From contig NZ_LT635455.1 in assembly GCF_900119915.1 (NCBI RefSeq), positions 1,116,001 through 1,180,000 on the forward strand: 64,000 bases of DNA, in the 5' to 3' direction. Position 1 is the stretch's first letter. The number at the start of each line of letters is the position of its first letter. Shown here piece by piece: positions 14,294 to 29,147 of the stretch. This DNA comes from Olsenella timonensis (GTDB taxonomy: Bacteria; Actinomycetota; Coriobacteriia; Coriobacteriales; Atopobiaceae). The notes below the pieces were generated by a model, which had not been told where the DNA came from, searched no databases, and worked only from the letters and a program-made list of their open reading frames with translations. A program made the position numbers and the translations under genes.

Positions 14294-14390
14294 GCGTTCC
14301 TCCTATTTCTCGGACCGCCGGGCATGGGGCCCTGCGGTCGTACAAAGGACGGTCGGACAATGCGTCGGGCACGCATTTAGTCAAAGTATA
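14294..14390 (-). promoter_or_regulatory. adhE promoter, operator-like palindrome and leader hairpin
   Basis: On the minus strand a TATACT -10 box lies at 14390-14385. It is followed at once by a perfect inverted repeat AATGCGT-gcccg-ACGCATT (14359-14377), positioned where an operator would block initiation. Further down the leader, GACCGC..GGGC pairs with GCCC..CGGTC just before the ribosome-binding site. A redox regulator such as Rex would be expected for adhE, but I see no confident Rex site. Confidence 0.5.
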
Positions 14391-14429
14391 GTGCAGATTG
14401 GGCGAGAAGCGCGGCGGCGCCGGACGGCA

Positions 14430-14747
14430 TCAGCCGAGAAGCGCCTCGAGCTCCATGACCTGCTCGCGGGCGTCCCGCCCGTCCGCCTCCCAGAGGCGCC
14501 ACTCCCCCGCCGAGCGATACGCGACGCGCGGGCCGAAGCCGCAGGCGAGCTCGCTGGCGGCACGGGGGAAGTCGGGGTCCTGCTTGAGCCCCGGGTAGCG
14601 GACGGCCTCGACGCGCGGGTGGCACGCGAGGTAGTTGGCCACGACCTGGGCAGAGTCTGACACGGCCCTCCACCGCTCCCGCCCGAGCCTGGACGAGAGC
14701 GCCTGGAGGGCCGTGAGGTCGAGGTACTTCTCGACGACCTGGTCCAC
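14430..14747 (-). CDS. Small protein resembling a Cys/Met-metabolism PLP-enzyme segment
   Basis: About 105 aa, starting with GTG at 14747 two bases after the thrS TAG. Residues ~35-80 (DSAQVVANYLACHPRVEAVRYPGLKQDP, then ACGFGPRVAY) match the C-terminal small-domain start of cystathionine-gamma-synthase/O-acetylhomoserine-sulfhydrylase-type PLP enzymes. The PLP-binding Lys domain is entirely absent. The first 30 residues (VDQVVEKYLDLTALQALSSR) have no counterpart I recognise. The ribosome-binding site is weak, so expression may depend on coupling to thrS. It could be a decayed remnant or a genuine mini-protein; the frame is clean. Confidence 0.65.
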   Translation of the reverse strand: MDQVVEKYLDLTALQALSSRLGRERWRAVSDSAQVVANYLACHPRVEAVRYPGLKQDPDFPRAASELACGFGPRVAYRSAGEWRLWEADGRDAREQVMELEALLG

Positions 14748-14749
14748 GG

Positions 14750-16513
14750 CTAGCGGCGCTCGGCGATCTCTGCCGTGACGTCGGCGATGAAGTCGTCGAG
14801 GCCGGCGACGTGCGTCTCGTTGCTGCGGTCGCGCACGGAGATGGTGCCCGCCTCGACCTCCTGCTCGCCGAGGATCAGCATGTACGGCGGACGGTCGACG
14901 TTGCGGGCCTCGCGGATCTTGTAGCCGATCTTCTCGTCGCGCTCGTCGAGGACCGCGCGGATGCCGGCGGCCTCCAGGCGCTCGGTGACGCCGCGCGCGT
15001 AGTCGCGGCTCTTCTCGGACACGGGCAGGACCTTCACCTGGCAGGGGGCGAGCCACGTGGGGAACTTGCCGGCGAAGTGCTCGATCAGGATGCCGATGAA
15101 GCGCTCGATGGAGCCGAAGCACACGCGGTGCAGCATGATGGGGCGCTTCTTGGAGCCGTCGGCGTCGGTGTACTCGAGGTCGAAGTTGAGCGGCATCTGG
15201 AAGTCGAGCTGCACGGTGCCGCACTGCCAGGTGCGGCCGAGCGAGTCCTCGAGGTGGAAGTCGATCTTAGGACCGTAGAAGGCGCCGTCGCCCTCGTTGA
15301 CCACGTACTCCTTCCCGAGGCGCTCGAGCGCGACGCGCAGCGCGGACTCGGCGCGCTCCCAGTCCTCGTCGGACCCCATGGAGTCGTCGGGGCGGGTCGA
15401 GAGCTCCAGGTGATAGGTGAAGCCGAACTTCTGGTACACCGAGTCGATGAGGTTCACGACGCCCACGATCTCGTCGGTGAGCTGGTCGGGGCGCACAAAG
15501 AGGTGCGCGTCGTCCTGGTTGAAGCAGCGCACGCGGAAGAGGCCGTGCAGCGCGCCGCGCATCTCGTGACGGTGCACGAGGCCGATCTCGCCGGCGCGGA
15601 TGGGGAGCTCGCGATAGCTGTGCGGCTTGGAGGCGTAGACGAGCACACCGCCCGGGCAGTTCATCGGCTTGATGCAGTACTCCTCGTCGTCGATGGTGGT
15701 GGAGTACATGTTGTCCTTGTAGTGGTCCCAGTGGCCGGAGGTCTCCCACAGGCTCTTGCTCATGATCTGCGGCGTGGAGATCTCCACGTAGCCGGCGGCG
15801 CGGTGAATCTCCCGCCAGTACTGGAGCAGCTCGTTCTTGAGAATCATGCCGTTGGGCAGGAAGAACGGGAAGCCGGGCGCCTCGTCGCGCATCATGAAGA
15901 TGTCCATCTCGCGGCCGATCCTGCGGTGGTCGCGCTTCTTGGCCTCCTCGAGCAGGCGCAGGTGCTCGTCGAGCTCCTCCCTCGTGGCGAAGGCGGTGCC
16001 GTTGACGCGCGTGAGCATCTTGTTGTTCTTGTCGCCCTTCCAGTAGGCGCCCGAGACGCCCGTGAGCTTGAAGGCCTTGAGGGCCTTGGTGTAGGTGAGG
16101 TGCGGGCCCACGCACATGTCGATGTACTCGCCCTGCTGGTAGAAGGTGATGCGCGCGTCCTCGGGAAGGTCGCCGATATGCTCGACCTTGTACTTCTCGC
16201 CACGCTCCTGCATGAGGGCGACGGCCTCGGCACGCGGGAGCTCGAAGACCGTGAACTTGAGGTTCTCCTTCACGATCCTCTTCATCTCCGCCTCGATGGC
16301 CGGGAAGTCCTCCTCGGAGATCTTCTGGCCCTCGGGCAGGTCGATGTCGTAGTAGAAGCCGTTGTCGGTGGCCGGGCCGTAGGCGAAGTCCGCCTCGGGG
16401 TAGAGGCGCTTGACGGCCTGGGCCATGATGTGGGCGGCGCTGTGGCGGACGACGTGAGTGAGCTCGTCGGCGGGGCACTCGTCAACGTGACCGTCGTTGT
16501 ACAGGACCTTCAT
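14750..16513 (-). CDS. thrS: Threonyl-tRNA synthetase (no TGS domain)
   Basis: A 587-aa class II synthetase charging tRNA-Thr. The editing (second additional) domain is visible at residues ~20-210, with HSAAHIMAQAVKRLYPEADFAYGP (HxxxH) and CVGPHLTYTK. The class II core is seen in MNCPGGVLVYASKPHSYRELPIR and RVRCFNQDDAHLFV. The C-terminal anticodon-binding domain ends IRAVLDERDEKIGYKIREA. The usual N-terminal TGS domain (~60 aa) is missing. The chosen ATG at 16513 starts directly at the editing-domain lead. RBS: AGAAAGGTG. Confidence 0.96.
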   Translation of the reverse strand: MKVLYNDGHVDECPADELTHVVRHSAAHIMAQAVKRLYPEADFAYGPATDNGFYYDIDLPEGQKISEEDFPAIEAEMKRIVKENLKFTVFELPRAEAVALMQERGEKYKVEHIGDLPEDARITFYQQGEYIDMCVGPHLTYTKALKAFKLTGVSGAYWKGDKNNKMLTRVNGTAFATREELDEHLRLLEEAKKRDHRRIGREMDIFMMRDEAPGFPFFLPNGMILKNELLQYWREIHRAAGYVEISTPQIMSKSLWETSGHWDHYKDNMYSTTIDDEEYCIKPMNCPGGVLVYASKPHSYRELPIRAGEIGLVHRHEMRGALHGLFRVRCFNQDDAHLFVRPDQLTDEIVGVVNLIDSVYQKFGFTYHLELSTRPDDSMGSDEDWERAESALRVALERLGKEYVVNEGDGAFYGPKIDFHLEDSLGRTWQCGTVQLDFQMPLNFDLEYTDADGSKKRPIMLHRVCFGSIERFIGILIEHFAGKFPTWLAPCQVKVLPVSEKSRDYARGVTERLEAAGIRAVLDERDEKIGYKIREARNVDRPPYMLILGEQEVEAGTISVRDRSNETHVAGLDDFIADVTAEIAERR

Positions 16514-16773
16514 GGGAGACACCTTTCTGGCAGGGGGTGCGAACAACAAAAACGCCCGCGCGCCGCCGCGGCGACGTCAGGCGATATGCGGCGCCTGCCC
16601 GGGCACGCGGCCGGGGATGGGCAGACGCCTAGATAGTCTGCGTTCGAACGAAATGTGCGACGGCGTGGCGCATCTGGGTCCTTCGTCTTGGTTGCACCCT
16701 TTAGGTTTACCACAAGTGGGCGGCGATATTCGCCGGGACGCGGATTTGCCGCATCATGCCGCGGGGCGTCCAC
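16514..16773 (-). promoter_or_regulatory. thrS leader with attenuator-like structure and a coupled short frame
   Basis: About 230 nt upstream of thrS. On the minus strand, GC-rich self-complementary segments (GGCGCCGC with GCGGCGCGC, 16561-16600) run into CGGGCGTTTTTG (T-run about 16546-16550), resembling an attenuator terminator. A short open frame starting around the GTG near 16711 contains a threonine-bearing stretch (GATKTKDP) and ends in a TGA overlapping the thrS ATG by 4 nt. It lacks the T-box core sequence. A leader-peptide or simple terminator/antiterminator mechanism is possible. The frame itself has low-complexity, non-protein-like composition. Confidence 0.35.
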
Positions 16774-16780
16774 ACACGAA

Positions 16781-16810
16781 GCGGGCCCCGCTCGACGGAG
16801 CGGGGCCCGC
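16781..16810 (-). terminator. Strong GC hairpin after the zinc-ribbon gene
   Basis: A perfect 13-bp stem: GCGGGCCCCGCTC (16781-16793), a 4-nt loop, and its complement at 16798-16810. It lies 20 nt beyond the stop of the minus-strand zinc-ribbon gene and upstream of the thrS leader. The following bases on the minus strand (TTCGTGTGTGG) are only moderately T-rich. Confidence 0.6.
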
Positions 16811-16830
16811 GAACCGGACTCCTTGGCGCG

Positions 16831-17265
16831 CTACTGCTGGATGCGGGTGCGGCAGTAGGGGCAGACCTTCCAGTCGGCGTTGAGCGGGCGATGGCAGGTG
16901 GGGCAGACGTTGCGGACCTGCGTGTTGCAGATCGGGCAGACCACGAAGTCCCGGTCGATCGGCGCGCCGCACTTGGGGCAGATGCCGTAGTGAGAGAGCT
17001 GGTGCTCGCGCAGGGCGATGTCGAGGTCCTGCTCCTCGCGGTCGATGAGATAGGAGCTCGGGCGCAGGATGACGTAGGCGAGCAGGCCAACGATCGGGAT
17101 GACGGAGATGATGGCCCACATCCACCAGGGCTCCGCGCCGCGGCGCTGGGCGTCGCGGATGACGTAAACGATGGAGAGGATGTAGAGCATGACGACGCAC
17201 ACGACCATGAGGTAGAGGACCATGCGGACCTCGGGGGTGATGAGCTGGTCGAGAAGTTCTTGCAT
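16831..17265 (-). CDS. Membrane-anchored double zinc-ribbon protein
   Basis: 144 aa. Two hydrophobic helices (residues ~14-36 and ~47-68) resemble the PLDc_N/phospholipase-N-terminal membrane hairpin (VIRDAQRRGAEPWWMWAIIS). Three CxxC pairs follow, making two zinc ribbons: CPKCGAP, CPICN, CPTCHRP and CPYCRTR. The soluble C-terminus would face the cytoplasm. The start ATG 17265 has an AAGGAG site. It follows folC by 68 nt on the same strand. Function is unknown; zinc-ribbon hairpin proteins of this kind are common in Actinomycetota. Confidence 0.8.
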   Translation of the reverse strand: MQELLDQLITPEVRMVLYLMVVCVVMLYILSIVYVIRDAQRRGAEPWWMWAIISVIPIVGLLAYVILRPSSYLIDREEQDLDIALREHQLSHYGICPKCGAPIDRDFVVCPICNTQVRNVCPTCHRPLNADWKVCPYCRTRIQQ

Positions 17266-17333
17266 GTCGGGGACTCCTTCTGACGTCGGGCGCTGCGTCG
17301 CGCCGCCACATACAAGCGAGATTGTAGCAAAAG

Positions 17334-18665
17334 CTACCGGAAGAGGCCCACAAGCTCCCCCGCAAGCGTGATTGAGCCGCAGGCGACGTAGCTTTCTCCA
17401 CACAATGCCGACTTCGCGGCGCCGACCGTCGGGTACGTGCCGACCACCTCGACGCCGGCGGCGGCGAAGGCACGGGCGAGCTCGGTCGCCGGCAGCGCGC
17501 GGGGGCTGGCCGTCTGCGTGACGGCGACGCGCGGGAACGCGGCGGCGAGCAGGGCGACGATGCCGTCGACGTCCTTGTCGGCGAGGACCGCGGCGAGAAG
17601 GACGGGGCGCTCGGCCCGCTCGGGCGCGACGTCGGCGAGGGCCTCGAGGAACGCCTCGACCGACTGCGGGTTGTGGCAGGCGTCGATGAGCACGGGCGGG
17701 TCGGGCCGCAGCAGCTGGAAGCGCCCGGGCGTCGGACACCGGACGACGGAGGTGAAGAGCGCGTCGGGGTCGAGGGCGCGACCGAGGTGGGCCTCCGCGA
17801 GGGCGACGGCGCAGGCGATGTTCTGGGCCTGGTAGGCGGGTTTGAGCGCCGCGAGCTCGGCGTAGGTGGCGCGCGGCGTCGTGACGGAGAGCTCCAGCGG
17901 CCCCCCGAGGCGACGCGGGCGCTTCGTGACCTCGAAGCCCGGGCGGACGGGAACGACCCCCGCCTCCCGAGCGCGGTCGAGAAAGACGTCCTCGACGCTC
18001 CTCGGCCGTGCCGTCCCGGCCCCCAGGACGCAGGCGCGACCCGGCTTTATGATGGCGGCCTTCTCGCCGGCGATCTCCTCGAGGGTGTCCCCGAGGATGC
18101 GCGTGTGGTCGAGCCCGATGCCCGTCACGGCGACGGAGCGAATCGACTTCGCGGCCGAGGTGGCATCCCAGCGCCCGCCCAGGCCGCACTCGAGGACCGC
18201 GACGTCGACGCCCGCCTCCGCGAACACCACCATGGCGGCGACCGTGAGCGTGTCGAACTCGGTGATGTCGTAGGGCCGCTCCCCTGCGGCCGAGCGGCGC
18301 GCGTTGACGCGCTCGCCCGCCACACGCGCCGCGGCGACGCCGCGGGCGAAGGCCTCCTCGGAGACGGGACGTCCGTCGACCTCCATGCGCTCGGTGTAGC
18401 TCACCAGCTCGGGCGAGGTGTAGAGGGCGACCCTCAGCCCCTCCCCCGCGAGGATCGCCGCGGTGTAGCGCGCCGTCGACGTCTTGCCGTTGGTGCCCGC
18501 GACCTGTACGCACTCGAAGGCGAGATCCGGGTCGCCGAGCTCGGCGAGCATGTCCTCGACGGGAGCCAGGCTCGGGTTGACACCGAAGCGCAGACTCCTC
18601 TCAAGCACGCCCACGGCATCAGAGAAGCCAGATCGTGGAACGGGGAAAGGAAGGCGGTAACTCAT
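17334..18665 (-). CDS. folC: Folylpolyglutamate synthase/dihydrofolate synthase
   Basis: A 443-aa Mur-ligase-superfamily enzyme that adds glutamate to dihydropteroate and/or gamma-glutamate tails to folates, with ATP. The P-loop region is VQVAGTNGKTSTARYTAAIL. LYTSPELVSYTERMEVDGRPVS and LECGLGGRWDATS are classic FolC blocks, and the C-terminal ligase domain shows VLIDACHNPQSVEAFLEAL. It lies at the downstream end of a folate block (fhs, fchA, folD, folE, then three unusual genes) and starts 48 nt after the FolC-like gene with a GGAG site. It is the orthodox FolC of the window. Confidence 0.94.
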   Translation of the reverse strand: MSYRLPFPVPRSGFSDAVGVLERSLRFGVNPSLAPVEDMLAELGDPDLAFECVQVAGTNGKTSTARYTAAILAGEGLRVALYTSPELVSYTERMEVDGRPVSEEAFARGVAAARVAGERVNARRSAAGERPYDITEFDTLTVAAMVVFAEAGVDVAVLECGLGGRWDATSAAKSIRSVAVTGIGLDHTRILGDTLEEIAGEKAAIIKPGRACVLGAGTARPRSVEDVFLDRAREAGVVPVRPGFEVTKRPRRLGGPLELSVTTPRATYAELAALKPAYQAQNIACAVALAEAHLGRALDPDALFTSVVRCPTPGRFQLLRPDPPVLIDACHNPQSVEAFLEALADVAPERAERPVLLAAVLADKDVDGIVALLAAAFPRVAVTQTASPRALPATELARAFAAAGVEVVGTYPTVGAAKSALCGESYVACGSITLAGELVGLFR

Positions 18666-18713
18666 GGCTGCTCCAGCGTTGTCACGGGCGTCGAGTGCGC
18701 AGGCCCGGGCGGG

Positions 18714-20036
18714 CTAGACCTCGAGGCCCAGAAGATCGTAAACATCGGTAATCAGGGCGGTCGTACCGAGAATCACCACGGGCAGCCCGCACGACCGGGC
18801 ATGGGCGAGCGCCTCCGCGAGGTTATCACAAAAGGTGGCACCCACCCCCGCAGCACGCACGACGTCGGCCTGACGTGCGTCGAAGCGATAGTGGGCATTG
18901 CGCGCACGAACGAGCACCACCTCAGCCGCAACCCCGCACATTCCGAGCGCTACGCCGAGATAATCCTTATCGCTCGGGATGCCCAGCACGACGACCGCTC
19001 TCTCGACGCCGAGCTCGCGCAGCGCCATGCGGACCTCTCGGCAGCTCGCCCGATTGATGCACGCATCGAGGAGTGTAAGGGGGTCGTGGCCCACGACCTC
19101 CATTCGCCCCGGTATGCGCAGGGTGCCCAGGGCGGTGCGCACCTCGTCGTCGAGCATCCCGAGCACACGTCCGGAGCCCGGGGCCACGTCACCGCCACAA
19201 CGGACCCGCCCCAGCATGGACGCCGCAAGGGCGAGGGCGAGGGCGCAGTTGCGCGCCTGGAACGAGCCGAGCACGGGAAGCCGCACATCGGATAGGCGCG
19301 CGTCGCCGAGGCGCACGTCAAAGACGAGGAGGCCCCCTTCGTAGCGGACGTTCTCGGCCTCGAAATCGCGACCGTACACCCTCAGCTCGCACCCGACCCG
19401 CTCGGCTCGCTCCCTCAAGACGCCCATCGCCTCCTCGCTCTGCGGGCCGGAGAATGCCACCCTGACCCCCGTGCGCATCACGTGCGCCTTGTCCGAGGCG
19501 ATGGCGCGCACCGTCGGCCCAAGCTCCCGCGTGTGCTCGAGAAAGACGGTGTTGATGGCGGCGAATTCGTGGCAGACGTTGTTCACGTCATCATAGCGAG
19601 CTCCCTTCCCACACTCGAGCACGTTGGCCTCGCACCCTGAGCGTCGGAAGTGCTCGAGGGCGAGCGCGACCTGGATGCCCATGGGGCTGAGATAGCGTCC
19701 CGGGGGAATCCGGGAAATCACGCCCCTGAGCTCGGGCTCGAGAGACTCGAGGCACGAGACGAGCTCGCCATCAGAGATGGGCCTGCCGTTCACGCGGAAA
19801 CGCTCGTTGAACGACCGAACATGCGGGCTCGTCATGGAGCCCGTCGTAAGCGCACAGCCGAGCGCGCAGGCAGTCATGCGCACGACGGAGCCCTTCCCCT
19901 TACTCCCCGTCACGACAGCGCATGGGGCGCCCGAGAGCCGCTCGAGCAGGGGGGCGCTGTACTCCGGATGGCGCTTGGCCGAATCCGGGTCCTCATAGCG
20001 CAGCATGCCATCAGCCGCGAGATACGACTCATACAC
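18714..20036 (-). CDS. FolC-like Mur-ligase-superfamily amide ligase (divergent)
   Basis: About 440 aa. Homology to FolC/Mur ligases is clear: ATP loop VVTGSKGKGSVVRMTA (the usual GTNGKGS is GSKGKGS), SPHVRSFNERFRVNGRPISD, LECGKGARYDDVN (FolC has ExGLGGRxDxTN) and a C-terminal Rossmann-like domain with HDPLTLLDACINRASCREVRMAL. The missing GLGGR implies an altered substrate site. The start is GTG 20036 (GAGGAC upstream), 23 nt after the RimK-like gene's stop; the next ATG is at 20006. It should join an amino acid such as glutamate to a carboxylate, but the acceptor is unknown. It is distinct from the orthodox folC directly downstream. Confidence 0.8.
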   Translation of the reverse strand: MYESYLAADGMLRYEDPDSAKRHPEYSAPLLERLSGAPCAVVTGSKGKGSVVRMTACALGCALTTGSMTSPHVRSFNERFRVNGRPISDGELVSCLESLEPELRGVISRIPPGRYLSPMGIQVALALEHFRRSGCEANVLECGKGARYDDVNNVCHEFAAINTVFLEHTRELGPTVRAIASDKAHVMRTGVRVAFSGPQSEEAMGVLRERAERVGCELRVYGRDFEAENVRYEGGLLVFDVRLGDARLSDVRLPVLGSFQARNCALALALAASMLGRVRCGGDVAPGSGRVLGMLDDEVRTALGTLRIPGRMEVVGHDPLTLLDACINRASCREVRMALRELGVERAVVVLGIPSDKDYLGVALGMCGVAAEVVLVRARNAHYRFDARQADVVRAAGVGATFCDNLAEALAHARSCGLPVVILGTTALITDVYDLLGLEV

Positions 20037-20059
20037 AAAGTCCTCGGCCTCTTGCCGAT

Positions 20060-20911
20060 CTATCTCAGATCGCCCCCGATCACGTCGATCATGGCCCCGG
20101 CGACATTGACCCCGGTGGCCGCCTCCAACCCGGAAATCCCCGGCATGACGTTGATCTCGCAGAACACGTACCCACCCTCTCCATAGAGCAGGTCTATGCC
20201 CACGAAGTCCAGCCCCGTCTGCTCGTAGACGTCGCGGGCGACGCACTCGAGGGCATCGTCGACGCGTCTGGCGCTCACCTCTGCCCCGAGTGCGACGTTC
20301 GCCCGGAAGTCGCACTCCGAACGGCGCTCCATGCAGGCGAGCGGAAGCCCGCGAACCGCAAACAGTCTCAGGTCGCGACCCGCACTCGATGAGACGAACT
20401 CCTCGAAGACCAGCTCCCTGTCGGCACCGAAGCGCGAGGCGAGAAGTCCCATGTCTGCCTCCGACGAGACGAGCTCGACCTCCGCTCCCTGCGAGCTTGC
20501 GAGCCCCTTTGCCACGAAGGGCACCCCCAGAAGCGACGCCATGCGCTCAAAGCCCTGTCCAGGGGTTCCCAGGACCCATCGAGGAATCGTGAACGCCTCC
20601 GATCGGATGGACACGAGCTGCTCGTACTTGTCAACGAAACGCTCGAAGGGAACGGGGGAGTTATAGGCACGCGGAGCGAGCCGGCCGAGCTCCCGCTTGA
20701 GATGACCCCACTTGTAGCGATTGATGACGAAGTCGCGCGGCTTCAGAGCCTCGTCGTCGTGTCGGAGGGCACCGTCCACGACCTGCGTGTCGAGCACGCC
20801 CACGACGCGCAGGTCGATCCCGCGCCCCTGTGCCTCCTCGACGAGGCGACGGGTGGTGTACGCCCCCGCCATGTCGTCATACCTCTCGACAAGGTAGCCA
20901 CGCACCCTCAT
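20060..20911 (-). CDS. RimK-like ATP-grasp amide ligase
   Basis: 283 aa. ATP-grasp signatures are PFVAKGLASSQGAEVELV (ATP-binding Lys and loop), ELVFEEFVSSSAGRDLRLF, ECDFRANVALGAE (RimK-type GDFRxN) and the metal/phosphate block YVFCEINVMPGISGLEAATG (ExNxxPG). RimK relatives ligate glutamate or similar amino acids to protein, coenzyme F420 or peptide acceptors. The ATG at 20911 overlaps the TGA of the preceding gene by 4 nt, so production is coupled. Its position between an amidohydrolase-like membrane protein and a FolC-like ligase implies a shared carboxylate-amine product, unidentified. Confidence 0.85.
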   Translation of the reverse strand: MRVRGYLVERYDDMAGAYTTRRLVEEAQGRGIDLRVVGVLDTQVVDGALRHDDEALKPRDFVINRYKWGHLKRELGRLAPRAYNSPVPFERFVDKYEQLVSIRSEAFTIPRWVLGTPGQGFERMASLLGVPFVAKGLASSQGAEVELVSSEADMGLLASRFGADRELVFEEFVSSSAGRDLRLFAVRGLPLACMERRSECDFRANVALGAEVSARRVDDALECVARDVYEQTGLDFVGIDLLYGEGGYVFCEINVMPGISGLEAATGVNVAGAMIDVIGGDLR

Positions 20912-22914
20912 TTGACCTTCGCCCTCTCCGAGAAGAGCGCGAAGTAGATGATGAGCGGCACACACACCAACGACACGAGAAGCCCGACGGTCGGGTCGGT
21001 GAAGATCTGCGCCAAGGTAAGAATCGTCCCCAGAATCACGATCACCTGCTCCTCGGAGTGGAGCGAGAGGATGTAGCCCATGTCCCGGGAAACGGACACT
21101 ATGTCGTTCACGCTGTCGAGTCCGAGCGACATCCTTGCAGGGGCGGGAATCCCTATGGAGCAGTCGTCGAGCCTGGGATCGCCAAGGACGCGCAGACTGT
21201 CCGATCTGCCCGCAAAGTTCACGACGACCTTCCCGTGGTCATCGACTCCGAGCAGGCTCATCATATAGGGGCTCAAGCGCGCCACCCCGTGCGCGTCGTC
21301 GGGAAGCGAGGTCCACGTCGCGCGCAGGCTGTACGACGAGCTTCCGACGACACGCTCGAGAATGCGCACCCTCCACCGCGACGCCACGGGACGATGATGC
21401 TCACGGTTGGACCGCGGCCAGCGCAGGAGCTCGATTCGACCCACAAGCCCGAGGTCACGCTGGACGTCCGAGAGCTCCCGCAGGTCCTCGTCCTTGACGC
21501 TCTTGGTTTTCAGGAACATGAACGCACCGTCAGACGAGCGTTCGTAGCATCGCCGCATCAAATCCCGGTGCTCGGCGGAAAGCGCGTCGACCAGATGGGG
21601 GAACTCCTCGGCACGGATGGCACCCAGGGGAAGGTCGAGAAGGCCGAGCAACTTCCTGTAGTAGCGCGGCACCATGACCTTCTCGCCCTGGACCCTGCCG
21701 TCGTCCCCATAGTCGCTGCTGTCGACCTCGATGGGGAGGGAGGTGTCCGAGATGCGATTGTAGAGCGCATACGAGAGACCGCCCGATGCGTGGCTCTCGT
21801 CGACGAGGCGATCGTGGAGAGCGCTCGAGAGGGTCACGCAATCGAGTCGGTCTGCCCTCGGGACGCCAACGGCAAATGTCTCTCGGACCGGGAGGGACAC
21901 CACGACGGCCGCACCGTAGAGCGAGGCGTCGACCTGACGCCCGCACACCTCCTGGATCAGGCGGTTTGTCAGGGCGGCGAACTGACCCTCCTCGGCCTCC
22001 GGGGGATCGTCCGGAGAATCCGCAGATTCGTCGGCCGGGGGCTCGAGGCGCACGAACGCCTTCGCCCCCCTGCCCGTCGCACCCTGAACGCAAACGAGCT
22101 CGTGGTCAGCGAGGCAGGCCGGGAGGCTGGCGGACGACATTCTCACCACGTCCTGCGGAACCTGGCACGACGTCGGCCGGATCCGATAGGCCTCCATACA
22201 GGAAGACCCCCAGTCGAGCGCGGAGAGAGTCCGGATGGCGGCCTCAAGGCCGCGCACCAGGGCGAGAAGCGCCTCGGGCTCGTCGAGCGAGCGGTAGCGG
22301 GCGTTCACCTCGAGCTGTATGCAGTCGGTCCTCGTGGCCGCTGCCACATTCCTGGTCACAGTGTTCTGGGAGCCGGCGTCAAAGAGGCGGTTTCTCCAAA
22401 CGTCCGTCGTCACGCCCTCGAGACCCTCGAACTCATGCTCGAGCGAAAAGCGTAGAAGACGCGCAATGAAAGGGTGGTCATGAAGCGACGGGTCCCCTCG
22501 GCCGTCGGGGCCTGGAGCGGTCCCGAACTCCACCGCGAACGGCCGGTCCGCGGAGCTGCCATGCAGGTCGACGAGAACCCTGATGCCATGACGCTGAACG
22601 TACCTGATGAGCGCACCCTGATACGGATTCGAGGTCGGCTCGTCATAGTTCGGGTCACCACCGCAGCTCGAGGCGGCATAGACGACGTGGCATCCCGTCA
22701 GACGACCGAGCAGACGGGCAATCGCCCCCGTCAGCAGCTCGGCAGGCTTGGCCCTGCCCTCACGCACCTGGTTGACGGCATGGGGTGCCGACACCATGAC
22801 AGGAACGGAGCCACCTTGGAACCGCACGGCCCCGCACCCGCGTCCTTCGTATCCACGGGCGGCGAACGGACGCTCGAGTCGAGCAAGAAGGCGAATGATA
22901 TCCGTGTCGCTCAT
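20908..22914 (-). CDS. N-formylglutamate-amidohydrolase-like protein with C-terminal membrane anchor
   Basis: 668 aa. Residues ~35-235 look like the N-formylglutamate amidohydrolase/zinc-carboxypeptidase fold: VSAPHAVNQVREG (H45), VLVDLHGSSADR (D116, H118) and CIQLEVNARYR (E202) are the expected metal and catalytic positions. Residues ~245-500 match nothing I know. Residues ~510-612 (RLSPYMMSLLGVDDHGKVVV, then SIGIPAPARMSLGLDSVNDIV) resemble a double-psi beta-barrel such as the CDC48 N-domain. Two hydrophobic helices at ~623-661 would anchor it with the bulk cytoplasmic. ATG 22914 follows AAAGG. It is the first gene of a coupled trio with the RimK-like and FolC-like ligases. Function is unknown. 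Confidence 0.75.
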   Translation of the reverse strand: MSDTDIIRLLARLERPFAARGYEGRGCGAVRFQGGSVPVMVSAPHAVNQVREGRAKPAELLTGAIARLLGRLTGCHVVYAASSCGGDPNYDEPTSNPYQGALIRYVQRHGIRVLVDLHGSSADRPFAVEFGTAPGPDGRGDPSLHDHPFIARLLRFSLEHEFEGLEGVTTDVWRNRLFDAGSQNTVTRNVAAATRTDCIQLEVNARYRSLDEPEALLALVRGLEAAIRTLSALDWGSSCMEAYRIRPTSCQVPQDVVRMSSASLPACLADHELVCVQGATGRGAKAFVRLEPPADESADSPDDPPEAEEGQFAALTNRLIQEVCGRQVDASLYGAAVVVSLPVRETFAVGVPRADRLDCVTLSSALHDRLVDESHASGGLSYALYNRISDTSLPIEVDSSDYGDDGRVQGEKVMVPRYYRKLLGLLDLPLGAIRAEEFPHLVDALSAEHRDLMRRCYERSSDGAFMFLKTKSVKDEDLRELSDVQRDLGLVGRIELLRWPRSNREHHRPVASRWRVRILERVVGSSSYSLRATWTSLPDDAHGVARLSPYMMSLLGVDDHGKVVVNFAGRSDSLRVLGDPRLDDCSIGIPAPARMSLGLDSVNDIVSVSRDMGYILSLHSEEQVIVILGTILTLAQIFTDPTVGLLVSLVCVPLIIYFALFSERAKVK

Positions 22915-22931
22915 AATGCAACCTTTCTCAG

Positions 22932-23030
22932 CACGGCGCCGTGGAGAGGAGCGTCCGTCGTGAGTTCTTGCCGAGCGCCCCTCTCGGCAAGCCGTCTTGG
23001 CACCGGATGTTCCCCGCCGTGGCGCCGTGC
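22932..23030. repeat. Palindrome cluster in the folE downstream spacer
   Basis: The 125-nt spacer holds three short palindromic elements. A perfect 12-bp palindrome CACGGCGCCGTG lies at 22932-22943. A hairpin TTGCCGAG-cgcccct-CTCGGCAA lies at about 22968-22990. A second copy related to the first (CCGTGGCGCCGTG) lies at about 23017-23029. None has a T-tract. They may end or process the folate transcript before the three-gene cluster, or form an operator pair for that cluster. Confidence 0.45.
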
Positions 23031-23039
23031 GGGTAGACG

Positions 23040-23624
23040 CTACAGCCCGAGCAGGCGCAGGGCCTCCTCGCGGGTCTTGAGGTCGCGGAGGCAGCCGCGC
23101 ACCGCCGAGGTCGTGGTGAGCGCCCCGGCGGCTCGGATCCCGCGCATCGTCATGCAGGTGTGCTCCGCCTCGAGGACCACGAGCACGCCGAGCGGGTCGA
23201 GCTCTCGCACCATGGCGTCGGCGATCTGGCCGGTGAGACGCTCCTGCACCTGGAGCCGGCGCGCATACCCGGAGACGCATCGCGCGATCTTGGAGAGCCC
23301 GGTGATCCTGCCGTCACGCGGGATGTAGCAGACGTGGGCCCGCCCGGTGAACGGCAGGATGTGATGCTCGCACAGGGAGGAGAACGGGATGTCCTTGACA
23401 ATCACCATCTCCTGGTTTCCGGGCTCGTGGAACTGTCTGCGCAGGTGGGCGCCCGGGTCCTCCTGCATGCCGCCGAGAATCTCCTCGCAGGCGCGCGCCA
23501 CGCGGTCGGGCGTGCCGAGAAGCCCCTCTCGGTCCGGGTCCTCCCCAATCGCGAGCAGAAGCTCGCGCACGGCGGCCTCCACGCGCGGGCGGTCCAGCGT
23601 CTTGAAGCTCAGGTCATCTGACAT
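23040..23624 (-). CDS. folE: GTP cyclohydrolase I
   Basis: A 194-aa enzyme converting GTP to 7,8-dihydroneopterin triphosphate, the entry step of folate synthesis. Zinc ligands are visible in [10 protein letters not shown] (C85, H88) and in [12 protein letters not shown] (the distal Cys). [17 protein letters not shown] is the conserved GTP-site helix. Full length. The ATG begins immediately after the folD TAG, so it is last of the coupled set fhs-fchA-folD-folE. Confidence 0.97.
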
Positions 23625-24479
23625 CTAGCGAACCATCCTCTCGGCGGCCTCTACCACATGCTTGGCGAGAATCGCGGTGGTCACGGCACCGATCCCCCCG
23701 GGAACGGGCGTGATGGCGCCGACGATGTCGCGCACGGCGTCATAGTCTACGTCACCCACGAGCCGACCGCTCCCCTCGTCCCAGTTGATGCCGACGTCCA
23801 CGACGGTCTGCCCCGCGCGCACGCACGACGCCCCCACCATGCGCGGACGACCCGCGGCGACGACGAGGACGTCGGCAGCGCGGCAGGCTCCGGCGAGGTC
23901 GCGCGTCCTCGAGTGGCACATGGTCACGGTGGCGTCGCGGTCCTGGAGCATGAGCGAGACGGGACGGCCGATCACGAGCGAGCGACCGACGACGGTCACG
24001 CGCGCGCCCGACAGGGCCACGCCGTAGTGGTCGAGCACCGCGAGCACGGCCTCCGCCGTGCAGGGGGGAAAGCCGTAGCCCCGGCCGGCGAGGGTGCCGT
24101 AGAGCGAGGCGGGCGTGGCGCAGTCCACGTCCTTGTCGGGTAAGAGCAAGGCGCAGACGGCCTCCTCGTCGAGGTGCTCCGGAAGCGGGCGGAGGAGCAG
24201 GCACCCGTGGACGGCAGGGTCGGCGTTGATGGCAGCGACCTCGTCCAGCAGGTCGTGCGTCGAGCAGTCGGCGGGGAGGGTCACGCGCCGCGCCGCGATC
24301 CCGACGCGCTCGCAGCGCTTGAGCGCGCCGCGCTCGTAGGAGAGGTCGTCGGCGCGCTCGCCCACGCGCACGACGGCAAGCGTGGGCGTGACGCCGAGCG
24401 CGCCGAGGGATGCCGAGCGGACGGCCAGTCGCTCGGTCAGGGCGGAGGCGACGTTCGCGCCGCGCAGCTCGAGCGCCAT
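23625..24479 (-). CDS. folD: Methylene-THF dehydrogenase (FolD family, cyclohydrolase residues replaced)
   Basis: 284 aa. FolD normally carries out both the NAD(P)-dependent dehydrogenase and the cyclohydrolase steps between methylene- and formyl-THF. The NADP domain is present (VTVVGRSLVIGRPVSLMLQ), as are KDVD (residues 116-119) and the C-terminal TPVPGGIGAVT. In the substrate site the YxxxK motif reads Y48-ERG-A52, so the catalytic Lys is Ala, and the usual VQLPLP Gln is Leu96 (LLLRPLP). These changes predict loss of cyclohydrolase activity. The neighbouring fchA could supply it. The ATG at 24479 overlaps the fchA TGA by 1 nt. Confidence 0.92.
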   Translation of the reverse strand: MALELRGANVASALTERLAVRSASLGALGVTPTLAVVRVGERADDLSYERGALKRCERVGIAARRVTLPADCSTHDLLDEVAAINADPAVHGCLLLRPLPEHLDEEAVCALLLPDKDVDCATPASLYGTLAGRGYGFPPCTAEAVLAVLDHYGVALSGARVTVVGRSLVIGRPVSLMLQDRDATVTMCHSRTRDLAGACRAADVLVVAAGRPRMVGASCVRAGQTVVDVGINWDEGSGRLVGDVDYDAVRDIVGAITPVPGGIGAVTTAILAKHVVEAAERMVR

Positions 24480-25105
24480 CAGCGGACGGACCTCTCGGCG
24501 TGACGCCGCACGAGGGCACGCGCCCGCGGCACGAACTCGTCCAGCATCTCGGCGCACGCGGACTCGATGCTCGTCGTCGTGTCGTCATGAGGCAGGCCGT
24601 CGGTGTTCACGTAGACGTTGACGCTGGCCGCCTGGAGCGCCGCGGCGGCGAGGACGGCACCGCATGCGACGTCGGAGACGAGCAGCCGGGAGCAGATCCC
24701 GGACATCTCCTCGAGCAGCACGATGGCGCGGCAGCACTCCCCCATCATCGCGAGCGGCGCCATGCAGGCGTCCCTGGTCGCCGCCTCGATCGCCGCGCGG
24801 CGGCGCGGGTCGTCCCGCGGCAGGGCGTAGGCCTCGAGCAGGGGCGAGAAGCCCGTGGCATCGTCCTCGACGAGCTCGAGCAGCCTGAAGCGAACGTCCT
24901 CGGCGTCCTCCATGACGCTGGCGAGCGCGCCCTCGACGGCGGCATAGCGGGGCTTGCCCACGGTGAGGGCACCCGCCATGGAGCAGAGCGCCGCAGCCAG
25001 CGAGCCGGCGAGAGCCGCCGCGCCGCCGCCGCCGGGGACGCCGTCGCTCGAGGCGAGCCGATCGGCGAACTCCTCGCAGCTCAGCTCCGTGAGCCTCTCT
25101 TCCAC
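24479..25105 (-). CDS. fchA: Formiminotransferase-cyclodeaminase family / methenyl-THF cyclohydrolase
   Basis: A 208-aa all-helical protein of the FTCD C-terminal family. Members are formimino-THF cyclodeaminases, or FchA-type methenyl-THF cyclohydrolases when they stand alone in C1 operons. The signature PGGGGAAALAGSLAAAL is at residues ~24-40. The gene starts with GTG at 25105 after a GAGGGGG site, 13 nt behind fhs, and overlaps folD. No hut (histidine) genes are nearby, so methenyl-THF cyclohydrolase is the better reading, complementing the apparently crippled FolD. Confidence 0.88.
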   Translation of the reverse strand: MEERLTELSCEEFADRLASSDGVPGGGGAAALAGSLAAALCSMAGALTVGKPRYAAVEGALASVMEDAEDVRFRLLELVEDDATGFSPLLEAYALPRDDPRRRAAIEAATRDACMAPLAMMGECCRAIVLLEEMSGICSRLLVSDVACGAVLAAAALQAASVNVYVNTDGLPHDDTTTSIESACAEMLDEFVPRARALVRRHAERSVR

Positions 25106-25118
25106 GAGACCCCCTCGC

Positions 25119-26792
25119 CTAGAACAGGCCGACGATGCGGCCGTCGGGCGTGACGTCGATCTTCTCGGCAGCGGGGACCTTGGGAAGGCCCGGCATCGTC
25201 ATGATGTCGCCGGTGAGCGCGACGATGAACCCGGCGCCGGCGGACACCTTGAGGTTGCGCACCGTGATGCGGAATCCCCGGGGAGCGCCGAGCTTGGCCT
25301 GGTCGTCGGAGAAGGAGTACTGGGTCTTGGCGACGCAGATGGGCAGGCCGCCGAAGCCCTGCTCCTCGAGCTGGCGCAGCTGCTTTGCCGCGGAGCTCGT
25401 GAAGTCGACGCCGTCGGCGTGGTAGACCTTGGTCGCGATGGCGGCGAGCTTGCCCTCGATCGTGTCGTCGAGCTCGTAGGCAAAGCGGAAGTCGCTGGGC
25501 TCGTCGCAGAGGCGCACGACCTCGTCGGCGAGCGCGCGGCCGCCCTCGCCGCCCTTGGCCCAGACCTCGGAGAGAGCGACGTTGACACCCAGCTCGTTGC
25601 ACTTGCGCTCGACCAGCGCAAGCTCGGCGGCGGTGTCCGTCGGGAAGGCGTTGATCGCGACGACCACGGGCAGTCCCCAGACGTCTCGGATGTTGGAGAC
25701 GTGCTGGAGGAGGTTGGGCATGCCCGCCTCGAGGGCTTCGAGGTTCTCGGCCCCCAGGTCGGACTTGGCGACCCCACCGTTGTACTTGAGGGCGCGAACG
25801 GTGGCAACGAGCACCACGGCGCTCGGACGGATGCCGGCGTAGCGGCACTTGATGTCCAGGAACTTCTCCGCGCCGAGGTCGGCGCCGAACCCCGCCTCGG
25901 TGACGACGTAGTCGGCGAGCTTGAGGGCCGTCGTGGTCGCCTCGACGGAGTTGCAGCCGTGCGCGATGTTGGCGAAGGGGCCGCCGTGGACGAAGGCGGG
26001 GTTGCCCTCGAGGGTCTGCACGAGATTGGGCTTGATGGCGTCCTTGAGCAGCGCGGCCATGGCGCCCTCGGCGTGGATGTCGGCCACGGTCACGGGCCGT
26101 CGGTCATAGGTGTAGGCGATGACCATGCGGGCGAGGCGCGCCTTGAGGTCCATGAGGTCGGTCGCGAGGCAGAAGACGGCCATGACCTCGGACGCGACGG
26201 TGATGTCAAAGCCATCCTGTCGCGGCGTGCCGTCCGCCACGCCGCCCAGGCCATCGACGACATTGCGCAGCTGGCGGTCGTTCATGTCCACGCAGCGCCT
26301 CCACACGACGCGGCGCGGGTCGATGCCGAGGGCGTTGCCCTGCTTGATGTGGTTGTCCAGCATCGCGGCGCAGAGGTTGTTCGCGGCGCCGATGGCATGG
26401 AAGTCTCCGGTGAAGTGCAGGTTGATGTCCTCCATGGGGACGACCTGGGCATAGCCGCCGCCCGCGGCGCCCCCCTTGATGCCGAAGACCGGGCCGAGCG
26501 AGGGCTCGCGCAGCGCGAGCATGGTGCGGCGACCGGTGAGGTTGAGCGCGTCGGCGAGGCCGATGGAGGTCGTGGTCTTGCCCTCGCCCGCGGGCGTCGG
26601 GTTGATCGCCGTCACGAGCACGAGCTTGCCCCGGAGCGGGCGGTCGGCGAGCGAGTGGATGTCGACCTTGGCCTTTGTGCGGCCGTACGGCTCGATCATG
26701 TCCTCGGTGAGGCCCGCCCGTCTCGCCACCTCAAGGATGGGCAGCATCTCCGCCTCCTGGGCGATCTGGATGTCGGACTTGAACTCGGCCAT
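25119..26792 (-). CDS. fhs: Formate-tetrahydrofolate ligase
   Basis: A 557-aa enzyme (10-formyl-THF synthetase) that activates formate with ATP onto THF. The P-loop [18 protein letters not shown] is near residue 65, with [25 protein letters not shown] and the C-terminal block [14 protein letters not shown]. It is full length. It leads a minus-strand operon fhs-fchA-folD-folE. Together these genes interconvert formate and methylene-THF and make the pterin precursor. No Wood-Ljungdahl carbonyl-branch genes are seen. Confidence 0.97.
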
Positions 26793-26812
26793 GTGCGTCC
26801 CCCTCGAACGGC

Positions 26813-26831
26813 AGTAGAGACCTCTACTATA
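26813..26831 (-). promoter_or_regulatory. fhs -10 box overlapping an operator-like palindrome
   Basis: On the minus strand TATAGT (26831-26826) is a good -10 sequence. It abuts a palindrome with 7-bp perfect arms, AGTAGAG and CTCTACT, around a 2-nt centre (26813-26828). The overlap of -10 and palindrome is typical of repressor control. The regulator is unknown, and no THF riboswitch fold fits the 20-nt leader. Confidence 0.45.
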
Positions 26832-26864
26832 GCGCGCGGAGCGCGGCGCCGGGCGGGATGCCCC

Positions 26865-27890
26865 CTAGCGCGCGCGAGCCACGCTCTCGCGCTCAACGAG
26901 CTTGGGCGCGATGCGGATGGCAACCGGCTGGTAGCCCGGCGCGGAGCCGAGCAGCGCGTGCTCCACGGCCGTCCGCCCGCGGGCGAAGAGGTCAAAGCTC
27001 ACCGTGGTGAGCCGGACGTGCGGCATCATCCTGGTCAGAGAGTCATCGACGCCGACGACGCTCACGTCCTCCGGGACGCGGCGACCGGCGTCCGCGAGGG
27101 CCTCCCACACGCCGACGGCCATCTGGTCGTTGGCGGCGTAGACCGCCGTGACGTCGGGGTCGCGCGCGATCTGCCAGCCAAGCTCGTAGCCGCTGTTCGC
27201 GGTCCAGTCGCCTCGCAGCGGCTCGGTGACGCGCAGGCCCCGTGCGACGAGCTCGTCTCGCCAGCCCCGCTCGCGGAAGACCGAGTCGACGGAGTAGAGG
27301 GGCCCGCTCACGAAGCGAATCTCTCGGTGCCCGCGCGAGGTGAGGTGCTCCATGATGAGACGGGAGCACGCGTACTGGTCGGAGTCGATCGTCGTGCAGC
27401 ATGGGTGCTCGTACATGGAGAGCAGCACGGTGGAGATGCCGGGATGAGGCACGAACTGCTCGAAGTCGCTCGCCTTGATGCTCATGCTGATGACGAGGGC
27501 GTCGATGGGCAGCGCAATCATCCGCCTGGTCGCCTCGGCGAGCGAGAGCGGAACCCGGTCGTCCATCTCGAGCGTGGTGACCGCGTAGCCCATCTCGCCC
27601 GCCGCCGAGAGGATCCCCTTGATCGTTGCGAGGTTCCCGAACTGGTCGACGTTGTACAGGCACAGGCCGAGCGAGTTGTACCGTCCGCTGCGCAGGGACT
27701 TCCCGGCGAAGTTGGGCCTGAAGCCGAGCTCGCGGATGGCGTCGAGCACGCGGGCGCGCGTCCGCTCGCTCACGTTGGGATGACCGTTGACCACGCGCGA
27801 GACGGTCTGCTGGGAGACCCCGGCGGCGCGGGCGACCTCCGCCATGGAGACCGGGCGCGCCTCGGGGCAACTGGACCCCCGCCCTGCCAT
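26865..27890 (-). CDS. LacI/GalR-family transcriptional regulator
   Basis: 341 aa. The N-terminal LacI helix-turn-helix is SMAEVARAAGVSQQTVSRVVNGHPNVSERTR, with hinge helix FAGKSLRSGR. A periplasmic-binding-protein-like effector domain follows, containing VSVVGVDDS and IARDPDVTAVYAANDQMA. ATG 27890 is chosen, with GGGGGTGG upstream. The gene is divergent from galM, with a 14-bp operator-like sequence between them (27967-27980) that recurs before mglB. A role as a galactose or glucose-responsive repressor of lacI/galM/mgl is inferred. Confidence 0.92.
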   Translation of the reverse strand: MAGRGSSCPEARPVSMAEVARAAGVSQQTVSRVVNGHPNVSERTRARVLDAIRELGFRPNFAGKSLRSGRYNSLGLCLYNVDQFGNLATIKGILSAAGEMGYAVTTLEMDDRVPLSLAEATRRMIALPIDALVISMSIKASDFEQFVPHPGISTVLLSMYEHPCCTTIDSDQYACSRLIMEHLTSRGHREIRFVSGPLYSVDSVFRERGWRDELVARGLRVTEPLRGDWTANSGYELGWQIARDPDVTAVYAANDQMAVGVWEALADAGRRVPEDVSVVGVDDSLTRMMPHVRLTTVSFDLFARGRTAVEHALLGSAPGYQPVAIRIAPKLVERESVARAR

Positions 27891-27966
27891 GCATCCACCC
27901 CCGACCGCTCGCGAACAGTTTGCGGACCAACGGCGAAAAACTCGCCGCATCGGGCAACGTGCCCTA

Positions 27967-27980
27967 TGTGTACGTTAACA
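27967..27980. promoter_or_regulatory. Probable LacI-family operator in lacI-galM intergenic region
   Basis: TGTGTACGTTAACA: an imperfect 14-bp palindrome around a central CG, with outer TGT/ACA and inner AC/GT matching as in LacI-family operators. Ten consecutive bases (TACGTTAACA) recur at 33958-33967 upstream of mglB. Its location between the divergent regulator and galM fits autoregulation and joint control. Confidence 0.6.
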
Positions 27981-28067
27981 TCTTGTTGAGGTCCGACTGG
28001 GGCTCGTTCGCGTGCAGACGGTGAGCGGCGCCCTTCCGCACCGTCTGCGACAGGAGGGAGCACGGTC

Positions 28068-29147
28068 ATGGAGGTCTCGTCGTTCGGCACGGCGCCCGAG
28101 GGAGCGCAGGCGCACGTCTACGAGCTCGCGAGCGAGCATGCCCGCGTGCGCGTCTCTGACTTCGGGGCGACGCTCGTGGGGATCGACGTGCCCGACCGTG
28201 ACGGCCGCACGGCCGACGTCCTTCTCGGCTTTGCGTCGGTGGAGGGGTATGCCGGCACCAACGCCGCGTGTTACGGGGGCGTTATCGGCCCCATGGCCAA
28301 CCGCACCGACCGAGCCGAGGTCCCCATCAACGGGACGACCTACCACCTTCCCGGGAACGACGGGGCAAACGGCGAGAACAACCTCCACTCCAGCCTCGAC
28401 CACGGCCTGCACAAGCGCCTGTGGGACGCCGCGCCCGACGGCCCGGCGAACGCGCTTCGCCTCAGCTGCCGGCTCGCCGACGGCGAGCTGGGGCTGCCCG
28501 GAAACCGAACCTTCACGACGAGCTACGCGCTCTCGGAGCCCGAGGAGGGCGTCGTGGAGCTGAGAATCGACTTTGGCTGCACCACGGACGCCGAGACCTA
28601 CGTGAACATGACGAGCCACGCCTACGTGAACCTCGCGGGACACGATGCGGGCGACGTGCTCGACGAGGTCGTCTCGGTGGACGCGGACGCCTTCCTCCCC
28701 CTGCGCGAGGACTCCGTCTCCGAGGGGGAGGTCCGCGACGTCGCCGGCACGCCGTTCGACTTTCGCTCCCCCAAGGCGCTCGGCGCGGACATCGAGGCGG
28801 ACGACGAGCAGCTGGCTCGCGGGCGTGGCTACGACCACTGCATGTGCGTGCGCGGCTGGGAGCCCGGCGCTGCGCCGCGCCACGCCATGCGCTCCGTGGA
28901 CCCGGCGAGCGGCCGCGCGCTCGACGTCCTGATCACCATGCCCGGCGCGCATCTCTACACCGGCAACTGGCTCGAGGACGACGCCCCCCTCACCAAGGGC
29001 GGCGCGAGCTACCGCCCGCGCTCCGGGCTTGCCTTTGAGCCGGAGTTCTATCCCGACGCGCCGCACCACGCAGACTGGCCGCAGCCCGTCTGCGAGCCCG
29101 GTCGCCCCTACGCCCAGACGATCGTCTATCGCTTCTCGACGGTCTAG
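28068..29147 (+). CDS. galM: Aldose 1-epimerase (galactose mutarotase)
   Basis: A 359-aa enzyme interconverting alpha and beta anomers of galactose or glucose before phosphorylation. Visible landmarks are VRVSDFGATLVGIDVPDRDG, GGVIGPMANRTDRAEVPING, NNLHSS (the NHLHGG-type His), the catalytic His in NMTSHAYVNLAGH and the general-base Glu in LAFEPEFYPDAPHH. AGGAGGGAG precedes the ATG. It lies between the LacI-family regulator and the mgl transporter genes, supporting a galactose uptake and use unit. Confidence 0.94.
   Translation: MEVSSFGTAPEGAQAHVYELASEHARVRVSDFGATLVGIDVPDRDGRTADVLLGFASVEGYAGTNAACYGGVIGPMANRTDRAEVPINGTTYHLPGNDGANGENNLHSSLDHGLHKRLWDAAPDGPANALRLSCRLADGELGLPGNRTFTTSYALSEPEEGVVELRIDFGCTTDAETYVNMTSHAYVNLAGHDAGDVLDEVVSVDADAFLPLREDSVSEGEVRDVAGTPFDFRSPKALGADIEADDEQLARGRGYDHCMCVRGWEPGAAPRHAMRSVDPASGRALDVLITMPGAHLYTGNWLEDDAPLTKGGASYRPRSGLAFEPEFYPDAPHHADWPQPVCEPGRPYAQTIVYRFSTV

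Follow-up and report, generated by a model that had tools for sequence, protein, structure and literature searches.

A rare gene trio of two ligases and a membrane-anchored hydrolase-fold protein next to folC in Olsenella timonensis: a candidate module for folate tail remodelling

Three genes, here called P1, P2 and P3, lie on the minus strand of a 64,000-nucleotide stretch of the Olsenella timonensis genome (contig NZ_LT635455.1, positions 1,116,001 to 1,180,000; hereafter the window), the genome being assembled as one contig of 2.18 Mb. They encode, in order of transcription, a protein with a hydrolase fold and a membrane anchor, a ligase of the RimK type and a second ligase derived from FolC. 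The trio is real and rare, and it is not a product of chance, because the same order recurs in other genera and phyla. That it is a module for remodelling the tail of folate is a proposal to which we give about an even chance; its chemistry is predicted from sequence, and folate is the substrate that we infer. The components are as follows.

P1, 20908..22914, minus strand: 668 amino acids; N-terminal domain with a zinc-hydrolase fold (about 1-235), then a central region, a CDC48-N-type double-psi barrel (526-614) and a hydrophobic C-terminal anchor followed by a short basic tail.
P2, 20060..20911, minus strand: 283 amino acids; RimK-family ATP-grasp ligase (profile match).
P3, 18714..20063, minus strand: 449 amino acids; FolC-derived Mur-type ligase with an altered C-terminal site; probable first codon ATA.
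P2/P3 overlap ATAG, 20060..20063, minus strand: P2 stop TAG with P3 first codon ATA.

FolC is the standard folate tail enzyme, and folate tails govern the retention of folate in the cell and its binding by enzymes. Tail remodelling is the best single account of the trio because it combines ligases of the kind that act on tail carboxylates, a hydrolase domain with relatives that cut glutamyl or formyl-glutamyl amides, and a location that is repeatedly at folate genes. An earlier reading of this DNA from its letters and open reading frames (the sequence-only reading) had described three tight or overlapping minus-strand genes between folE and an orthodox folC. This layout is confirmed by two overlaps of four bases, one (ATGA, 20908-20911) placing the P1 stop on the P2 ATG and the other (ATAG) joining P2 to P3, and by matches of the flanking genes to PF01227 and TIGR01499. 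The same reading took the three products for a set acting on amide bonds, and the domain assignments given below support it.

Loci with a P3-type gene were sought on genome contigs using only two short peptide patterns from the P3 alignment, so that the 22 loci found are a lower bound. They belong to Olsenella and other actinobacterial metagenome-assembled genomes (MAGs), to Lachnospiraceae including Butyrivibrio, to Eubacteriaceae, to a Spirochaetaceae MAG, to two less precisely labelled MAGs and to Aneurinibacillus; L012, L013 and L016 coincide with contigs of genomes G030, G044 and G071 and add no extra genomes. The order P1-P2-P3 is found in the window, at L007/L012 and L008/L016, at three Butyrivibrio loci and in one Spirochaetaceae MAG, where P1 consists of the hydrolase domain only; other Lachnospiraceae have P2-P3 without P1. 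Two MAGs labelled Olsenella share the gene order of the window. P2 is directly upstream of P3 in 13 of the 22 loci and separated from it by one gene in two more (one of them having a fragmentary P2 where the contig ends), and P1 is upstream of P2 in six, once as the hydrolase domain only. P2 occurs somewhere in 16 of the 22 P3 genomes (E<=1e-20) and P1 in seven. The identities of P2 and P3 also diverge together (r 0.90 for 13 loci, two near-duplicate Butyrivibrio loci being dropped; 0.96 with all 15). The rarity of the set is seen from broader samples: P3 was found in 3/347 sampled genomes of the taxonomic order (E<=1e-60), P1, whole or in part, in 12/347 of the same sample and in 5/150 relatives including the window's own genome (two of the five having only the hydrolase part), and P1 in 1/250 Lachnospiraceae at large, that one being the query genome.

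There is also a split form, in which one gene encodes the hydrolase and a separate, adjoining one the barrel with its transmembrane segment, accompanied by one or two RimK-like genes. It occurs in genomes G201, G324, G333 and G360 (scans covered three of the RimK-like proteins, those being of G201 and G333). The split-form proteins align with fused P1 as far as the C-terminal tail.

The genes around the trio in the window, all on the minus strand in the order fhs, fchA, folD, folE, P1, P2, P3, folC, are these.

fhs, 25119-26792, minus strand: PF01268, 892.1 bits; start of a one-carbon block that spans 24479..26792 with fchA.
fchA, cyclodeaminase-type, 24479-25105, minus strand: PF04961, 170.5 bits.
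folD (tetrahydrofolate dehydrogenase/cyclohydrolase), 23625..24482, minus strand: PF02882, 181.5 bits, and PF00763, 104.8 bits; start approximate.
folE (GTP cyclohydrolase I), 23040..23624, minus strand: PF01227; directly upstream of P1.
folC, orthodox, 17334..18665, minus strand: TIGR01499, 280 bits; directly downstream of P3.

This placement is not peculiar to the window. Among coriobacterial genomes with P3 or the C-terminal part of P1, folC is the next gene downstream in all eight (G000, G030, G071, G044, G333, G360, G201 and G324), which represent four genera and two gene arrangements. The folC that follows the split form overlaps the barrel gene in G201 and G324, and in both of the split-form genomes checked, G201 and G333, it is the only folC over the cut-off. 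In G333 the order is fhs - fchA - folD - RimK - RimK - hydrolase - barrel/transmembrane - folC. A further gene of that locus, like 6-pyruvoyl-tetrahydropterin synthase (L062 9243-9683; PF01242, 104 bits), follows folC and extends the pterin/folate block.

A second link to folate is found in Butyrivibrio. In G155, G156 and G171 a gene for a folate transporter of the energy-coupling factor type (TIGR04518, 122.7-125.5 bits, cut-off 60) lies next to P3 in convergent orientation; it is the sole TIGR04518 match over the cut-off in each genome, and no folP over the cut-off was found in the three. As a control on this call, the 22 P3 genomes were compared (G150 and G154 being represented by G030 and G071, with which they share contigs): nine have a transporter over the cut-off, and the same nine lack a folP over the cut-off, counts that rest on curated cut-offs, with weaker matches in most genomes. 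In the six of these transporter genomes outside Butyrivibrio, the transporter adjoins, by coordinates, the orthodox folC in four (G162, G166, G167 and G169) and is on another contig in G153 and G157. The idea that P3 is tied to folate auxotrophy was rejected, since nine of 15 P3 genomes are folP-positive and six folP-negative. Folate tail editing, the first of the two ideas offered by the sequence-only reading and the leading one here, gains from the split form before folC in two other coriobacterial genera (the sole folC over the cut-off in the one genome checked of each), from the sister-genus version before folC and from the sole Butyrivibrio folate transporter over the cut-off.

P3 scores 177.2 bits against TIGR01499, over the cut-off of 162.65 and below the orthodox folC of the window. 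An ATA codon (20063) opens its conserved N-terminus, in place of the ATG or GTG of other relatives, and for this reason the gene is taken as 18714-20063; the ATAG overlap is also present in congener L012 (position 3326), with ATG in L008/L016. ATA would be a rare start codon, seen within a stop-start overlap in two species. Residues were compared between 22 P3 and 25 orthodox FolC proteins, each set consisting of related and not independent sequences (27 FolC loci were offered, of which L085 and L100 were dropped as no open reading frame passed the filter; L031, which is cut off, was left out of the P3 set). With FolC (TIGR01499; Lactobacillus casei folylpolyglutamate synthetase, 1fgs) P3 shares the nucleotide and metal residues K57, E150, H177, K192, R320 and D333, kept in 22/22, as well as the P-loop serine S59 and, in 20/22, S79. 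The counterparts in the L. casei enzyme, namely the P-loop lysine, E143, H170, Lys185, R300 and D313, are presumably catalytic residues for ATP and magnesium. The two families part in the P-loop, TGSKGKGS in P3 for AGTNGKGS in FolC (SK for TN), and above all towards the C-terminus, where P3 has Ile336 for the histidine of DGAHN (21/22, with valine in L024, vs histidine in 25/25 FolC), His391 for the arginine of SPR (22/22 vs arginine in 25/25) and Thr434 for the serine of the GS motif (22/22 vs serine in 25/25). The SPR arginine occupies what we take to be the site of the amino-acid-binding arginine of MurE.

P3 is therefore a coherent subfamily, and its amino-acid site, judged from these residues, is probably different from that of FolC. 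The GKGAR that the sequence-only reading saw in place of GLGGR is correct, and its GKG part recurs in most P3 relatives among those listed. A FolC scoring above P3 is present in each of the 22 P3 genomes and also in that of the window. A tandem FolC-like pair in Aneurinibacillus tyrosinisolvens (L032 6659-9329) has a P3-type second member, with an orthodox folC elsewhere. A PHROG match to P3, of function not assigned (1.2e-39), was taken as general FolC likeness. FolC2 of Lactobacillus reuteri was considered as a precedent for P3 and rejected, as it belongs to COG1478, a different family, according to the available part of PMC5061717.

P2 was rightly called RimK-like ATP-grasp: it matches PF08443 with 85.3 bits (E 5.2e-24) against a gathering score of 21. 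Its score for TIGR00768, 118.4 bits, is under the cut-off of 143.4. The best named models (RimK family, LysX, RimK and MptN) are all under their own cut-offs, and the CofF model is also matched, the equivalog cut-offs lying far above the P2 scores. Among solved structures the nearest are the ribosomal protein S6 glutamate ligase (RimK, 6.5e-29) and two 'probable alpha-L-glutamate ligases'. P2 thus resembles the alpha-glutamate ligases RimK, MptN, CofF and MyfB in its ATP-grasp domain and model matches, the likeness to MyfB being by description only, and differs from the named enzymes in falling short of their cut-offs.

P1 has no match among Pfam, NCBIfam and PADLOC models at E<=1, PF05013 included, and a sequence profile of its N-terminal domain has none among solved structures at E<=10. 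A model of that domain (residues 1-240) has a predicted local distance difference test score (pLDDT) of 83 and a predicted template modelling score of 0.87, and in this model the hydrolase fold is clear. The closest folds are those of the N-formylglutamate amidohydrolase family, 2odf and 2q7s (Z 15.5; root-mean-square deviation (rmsd) 3.4 over 189 and 186 residues), followed by the phage poly-gamma-glutamate hydrolase 3a9l (Z 14.5, rmsd 4.1 over 176 residues), carboxypeptidase B (Z 14.3), carboxypeptidase G2 (Z 14.2), a further poly-gamma-glutamate hydrolase, 21dc (Z 14.1), and many enzymes of the M14 and M20 types (Z 13 to 14). Foldseek places 2odf first, with 3a9l above 2q7s. P1 therefore resembles in fold (Z 13.2-15.5) both the N-formylglutamate amidohydrolases (2odf, 2q7s; PF05013) and PghP (M86), PM1 and YndL (3a9l, 21dc, 5onj), the PghP fold being recognized through 3a9l and 21dc. 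Unlike them, it lacks a sequence match and carries a CDC48-N barrel and a membrane anchor in the same chain. The split homologue L062 does reach PF05013, at E 3.9e-5 (24.3 bits), under the gathering score of 28.9.

The residues singled out by the sequence-only reading (H45, D116/H118 and E202) are invariant in 18/18 aligned homologues of the N-terminal domain, as are R51, D87, N89, D91, Y98 and Q200; position 59 is Glu or Asp in 18/18. For PghL, the zinc ligands and catalytic glutamate are His41, Glu46, His102 and Glu165 (available part of PMC6506827). H45, the acid at 59, H118 and E202 of P1 follow the same order along the chain, the comparison being by order only; this arrangement (His, acid, His, Glu) of putative ligand and base residues likens P1 to the two hydrolase families named above. 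Also upheld are the double-psi barrel and the anchor. Residues 526-614 match p97/CDC48 N domains at Z about 15 (5epp: Z 15.1, rmsd 1.4, 87 residues), which identifies the CDC48_N fold, and the split homologue L060 matches PF02359 at E 3.1e-6, under the gathering score; P1 differs from CDC48/p97 in having no AAA ATPase and in having the anchor and the hydrolase domain. The anchor is a hydrophobic stretch at 643-661 (Kyte-Doolittle 2.66) with a weaker one at 624-642, and the core of the basic tail, R-x-K-(V/I), is kept in 11/11 sequences, split or fused. The whole-P1 model, from seven sequences, has a mean pLDDT of 56, with residues 242-432 and 489-525 below 50. Butyrivibrio P1 (L017 4458-7148) has about 200 additional residues separating the hydrolase and barrel parts. 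In the Lachnospiraceae MAG G158, where P1 and P2-P3 are on different contigs, an in-frame TAG lies between these parts (L068 10685-13408), which may mean that there are two genes, that the gene is broken or that the assembly is wrong.

In the mechanism that we propose, P2 and P3 would each activate a tail carboxylate with ATP and add residues that orthodox FolC does not. P2 would probably add alpha-linked glutamate, with donor and linkage suggested by analogy with MptN, CofF and MyfB on other coenzymes, and P3 would add a FolC-type residue of different specificity. The N-terminal domain of P1 would be a metal-dependent amide hydrolase, with such tails as its putative target, and the double-psi barrel and hydrophobic C-terminus would hold it in its predicted place at the inner face of the membrane. 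A chemical precedent is provided by the RimK/MptN-like MyfB, which adds glutamates to methylofuran, a one-carbon coenzyme, and by MptN, which does likewise on tetrahydromethanopterin (both from the available part of PMC8141765). The methylofuran system, MyfA/MyfB, is like the trio in that a RimK-type ligase makes a glutamate tail on a one-carbon coenzyme; it differs in the coenzyme, and the part of PMC8141765 available describes neither a FolC-type partner nor a tail hydrolase.

Several observations weigh against folate tail remodelling. Since P3 is without the histidine of DGAHN and the arginine of SPR, it may not handle glutamate as a ligation substrate in the manner of FolC. The P1 fold cannot pick a substrate, because general carboxypeptidases and aminoacylases fit it at Z 13-14 and even unrelated uridine phosphorylases enter the Foldseek list from E 8e-5. 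No P1 was found in 15 of the 22 P3 genomes, which are mostly MAGs in which some may be missed, so that in some genomes the ligases may do without the hydrolase. Conversely, the hydrolase domain stands alone in six coriobacterial genomes, and in five of these six (all but G109) a search found no P2 (E<=1e-20). The trio recurs and adjoins folC in coriobacteria, but in most Firmicutes loci and in the spirochaete no folate gene was seen adjoining P2-P3 or P3 (by eye, several contigs being under 7 kb), the exception being a serine hydroxymethyltransferase gene about 4 kb off in L027. The three Butyrivibrio genomes are close kin and count as one lineage. Finally, the trio is not tied to its own folC by long common descent, because identity to congener L012 is 82% for folC vs 47% for P1, 55% for P2 and 52% for P3.

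Directly adjoining the hydrolase-alone relatives of these six genomes, L064 (3858-4649), L065, L066, L067, L005 and L006, no RimK- or FolC-like gene was seen.

The main rival is that the three genes serve to make and break down some other small molecule or polymer, such as a glutamyl or aminoacyl peptide, with a logic like that of cyanophycin, and that the folate neighbourhood is a convenient insertion site. We consider this unlikely, while recognizing that the C-terminal-side residues of P3 depart from FolC in 21-22 of 22 relatives, that most Firmicutes loci lack folate neighbours and that the relatives of the P1 hydrolase include polymer hydrolases. Cyanophycin synthetase (CphA) has an ATP-grasp domain followed by a Mur-type ligase, the pair represented by P2 and P3; unlike CphA, these are separate genes, and P3 is FolC-like. 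P3 passes the folC model, whereas it reaches the cyanophycin synthetase model TIGR02068 with only 10.3 bits (cut-off 850, E 0.12), and P2 is not among its listed matches. Moreover, the links to folate are independent, before folC in four coriobacterial genera and at the sole folT over the cut-off in Butyrivibrio.

It is improbable, in our judgement, that the trio modifies a protein, with P2 glutamylating it as RimK does ribosomal protein S6, the P1 barrel binding the client, P1 removing the tag and P3 priming. The nearest solved structure to P2 is indeed the S6 ligase, and CDC48-N barrels bind protein partners in solved complexes; however, no candidate client gene was seen travelling with the set in neighbourhoods inspected by eye, the genes keep folate company, and FolC-type ligases act on small molecules. 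Most improbable of the readings weighed is that P1 hydrolyses formyl groups, from N-formylglutamate or formyl-folate, recycling formyl units within the fhs-fchA-folD block, and that the ligases are there incidentally. The N-formylglutamate amidohydrolases lead the fold comparison, the L062 match to PF05013 points the same way and the block itself contains fhs, fchA and folD, but poly-gamma-glutamate hydrolase is just 1.0 Z lower and outranks 2q7s in Foldseek, in Butyrivibrio no block of this kind was seen adjoining the trio, and P2-P3 recur without P1. A role in anti-phage defence was rejected, since the three proteins match none of the PADLOC families at E<=1, roles outside that library being still possible.

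The trio was likely acquired by transfer, as the sequence-only reading had suggested from base composition; faster change, or loss in other lineages, may be the explanation instead. Its guanine plus cytosine (GC) content is 64.8-66.7%, and the GC fraction at third codon positions (GC3) is 0.80-0.81 vs 0.88-0.98 in seven other window genes measured. Total GC is equally low in thrS and adhE; for this reason GC3 is the telling figure. At five of the six congener loci read (G003, G005, G007, G019 and G022) folE adjoins folC without a P3-type gene, and the sixth, G026, has no folE there; the divergence of the trio relative to folC, given above, is in keeping with transfer. Carriage by phage or plasmid was rejected as P3 relatives were not found in viral contigs (two short peptide patterns only), and P1 had no match in plasmids. 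The G026 locus has a single open frame of 780 amino acids (L108 1492-3834) with a FolD-like start and a FolC match, a possible FolD-FolC fusion.

The components of the trio are of known kinds; their combination, the architecture of P1 and the P3 subfamily appear to be new. No description of the trio, and no named pathway containing it, was found in the literature searched, which was mostly open-access, so that an earlier in-silico mention is possible. As the set is patchy, adjoining folC in one phylum and, in another, the sole folate transporter over the cut-off, a folate role is directly testable. The set would also establish a subfamily of FolC and a type of hydrolase architecture missed by the present copies of Pfam and NCBIfam, and would caution against labelling P3-type genes as folate synthases. 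Alpha linkages have been reported in the distal part of the E. coli folate tail, and the available part of PMC1971073 names no gene for them. We suggest tentatively, and with less than even confidence, that the trio represents the first genetic system of a second kind of tail chemistry in folates, alpha-linked, branched or non-glutamate, the tail being added by a RimK-type and a FolC-derived ligase and edited by a membrane-held hydrolase. If so, the system would cross phyla, mostly in rumen and gut bacteria, and would hint at the kind of enzyme behind the E. coli linkages.

No Rfam element, riboswitches included, reached its gathering score within 14000-28500, and a promoter and terminator scan gave no signal above chance. 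Between folC and thrS a small membrane protein with a cysteine-rich, zinc-ribbon-like tail is encoded (16831-17262, minus strand), and it is retained in congeners.

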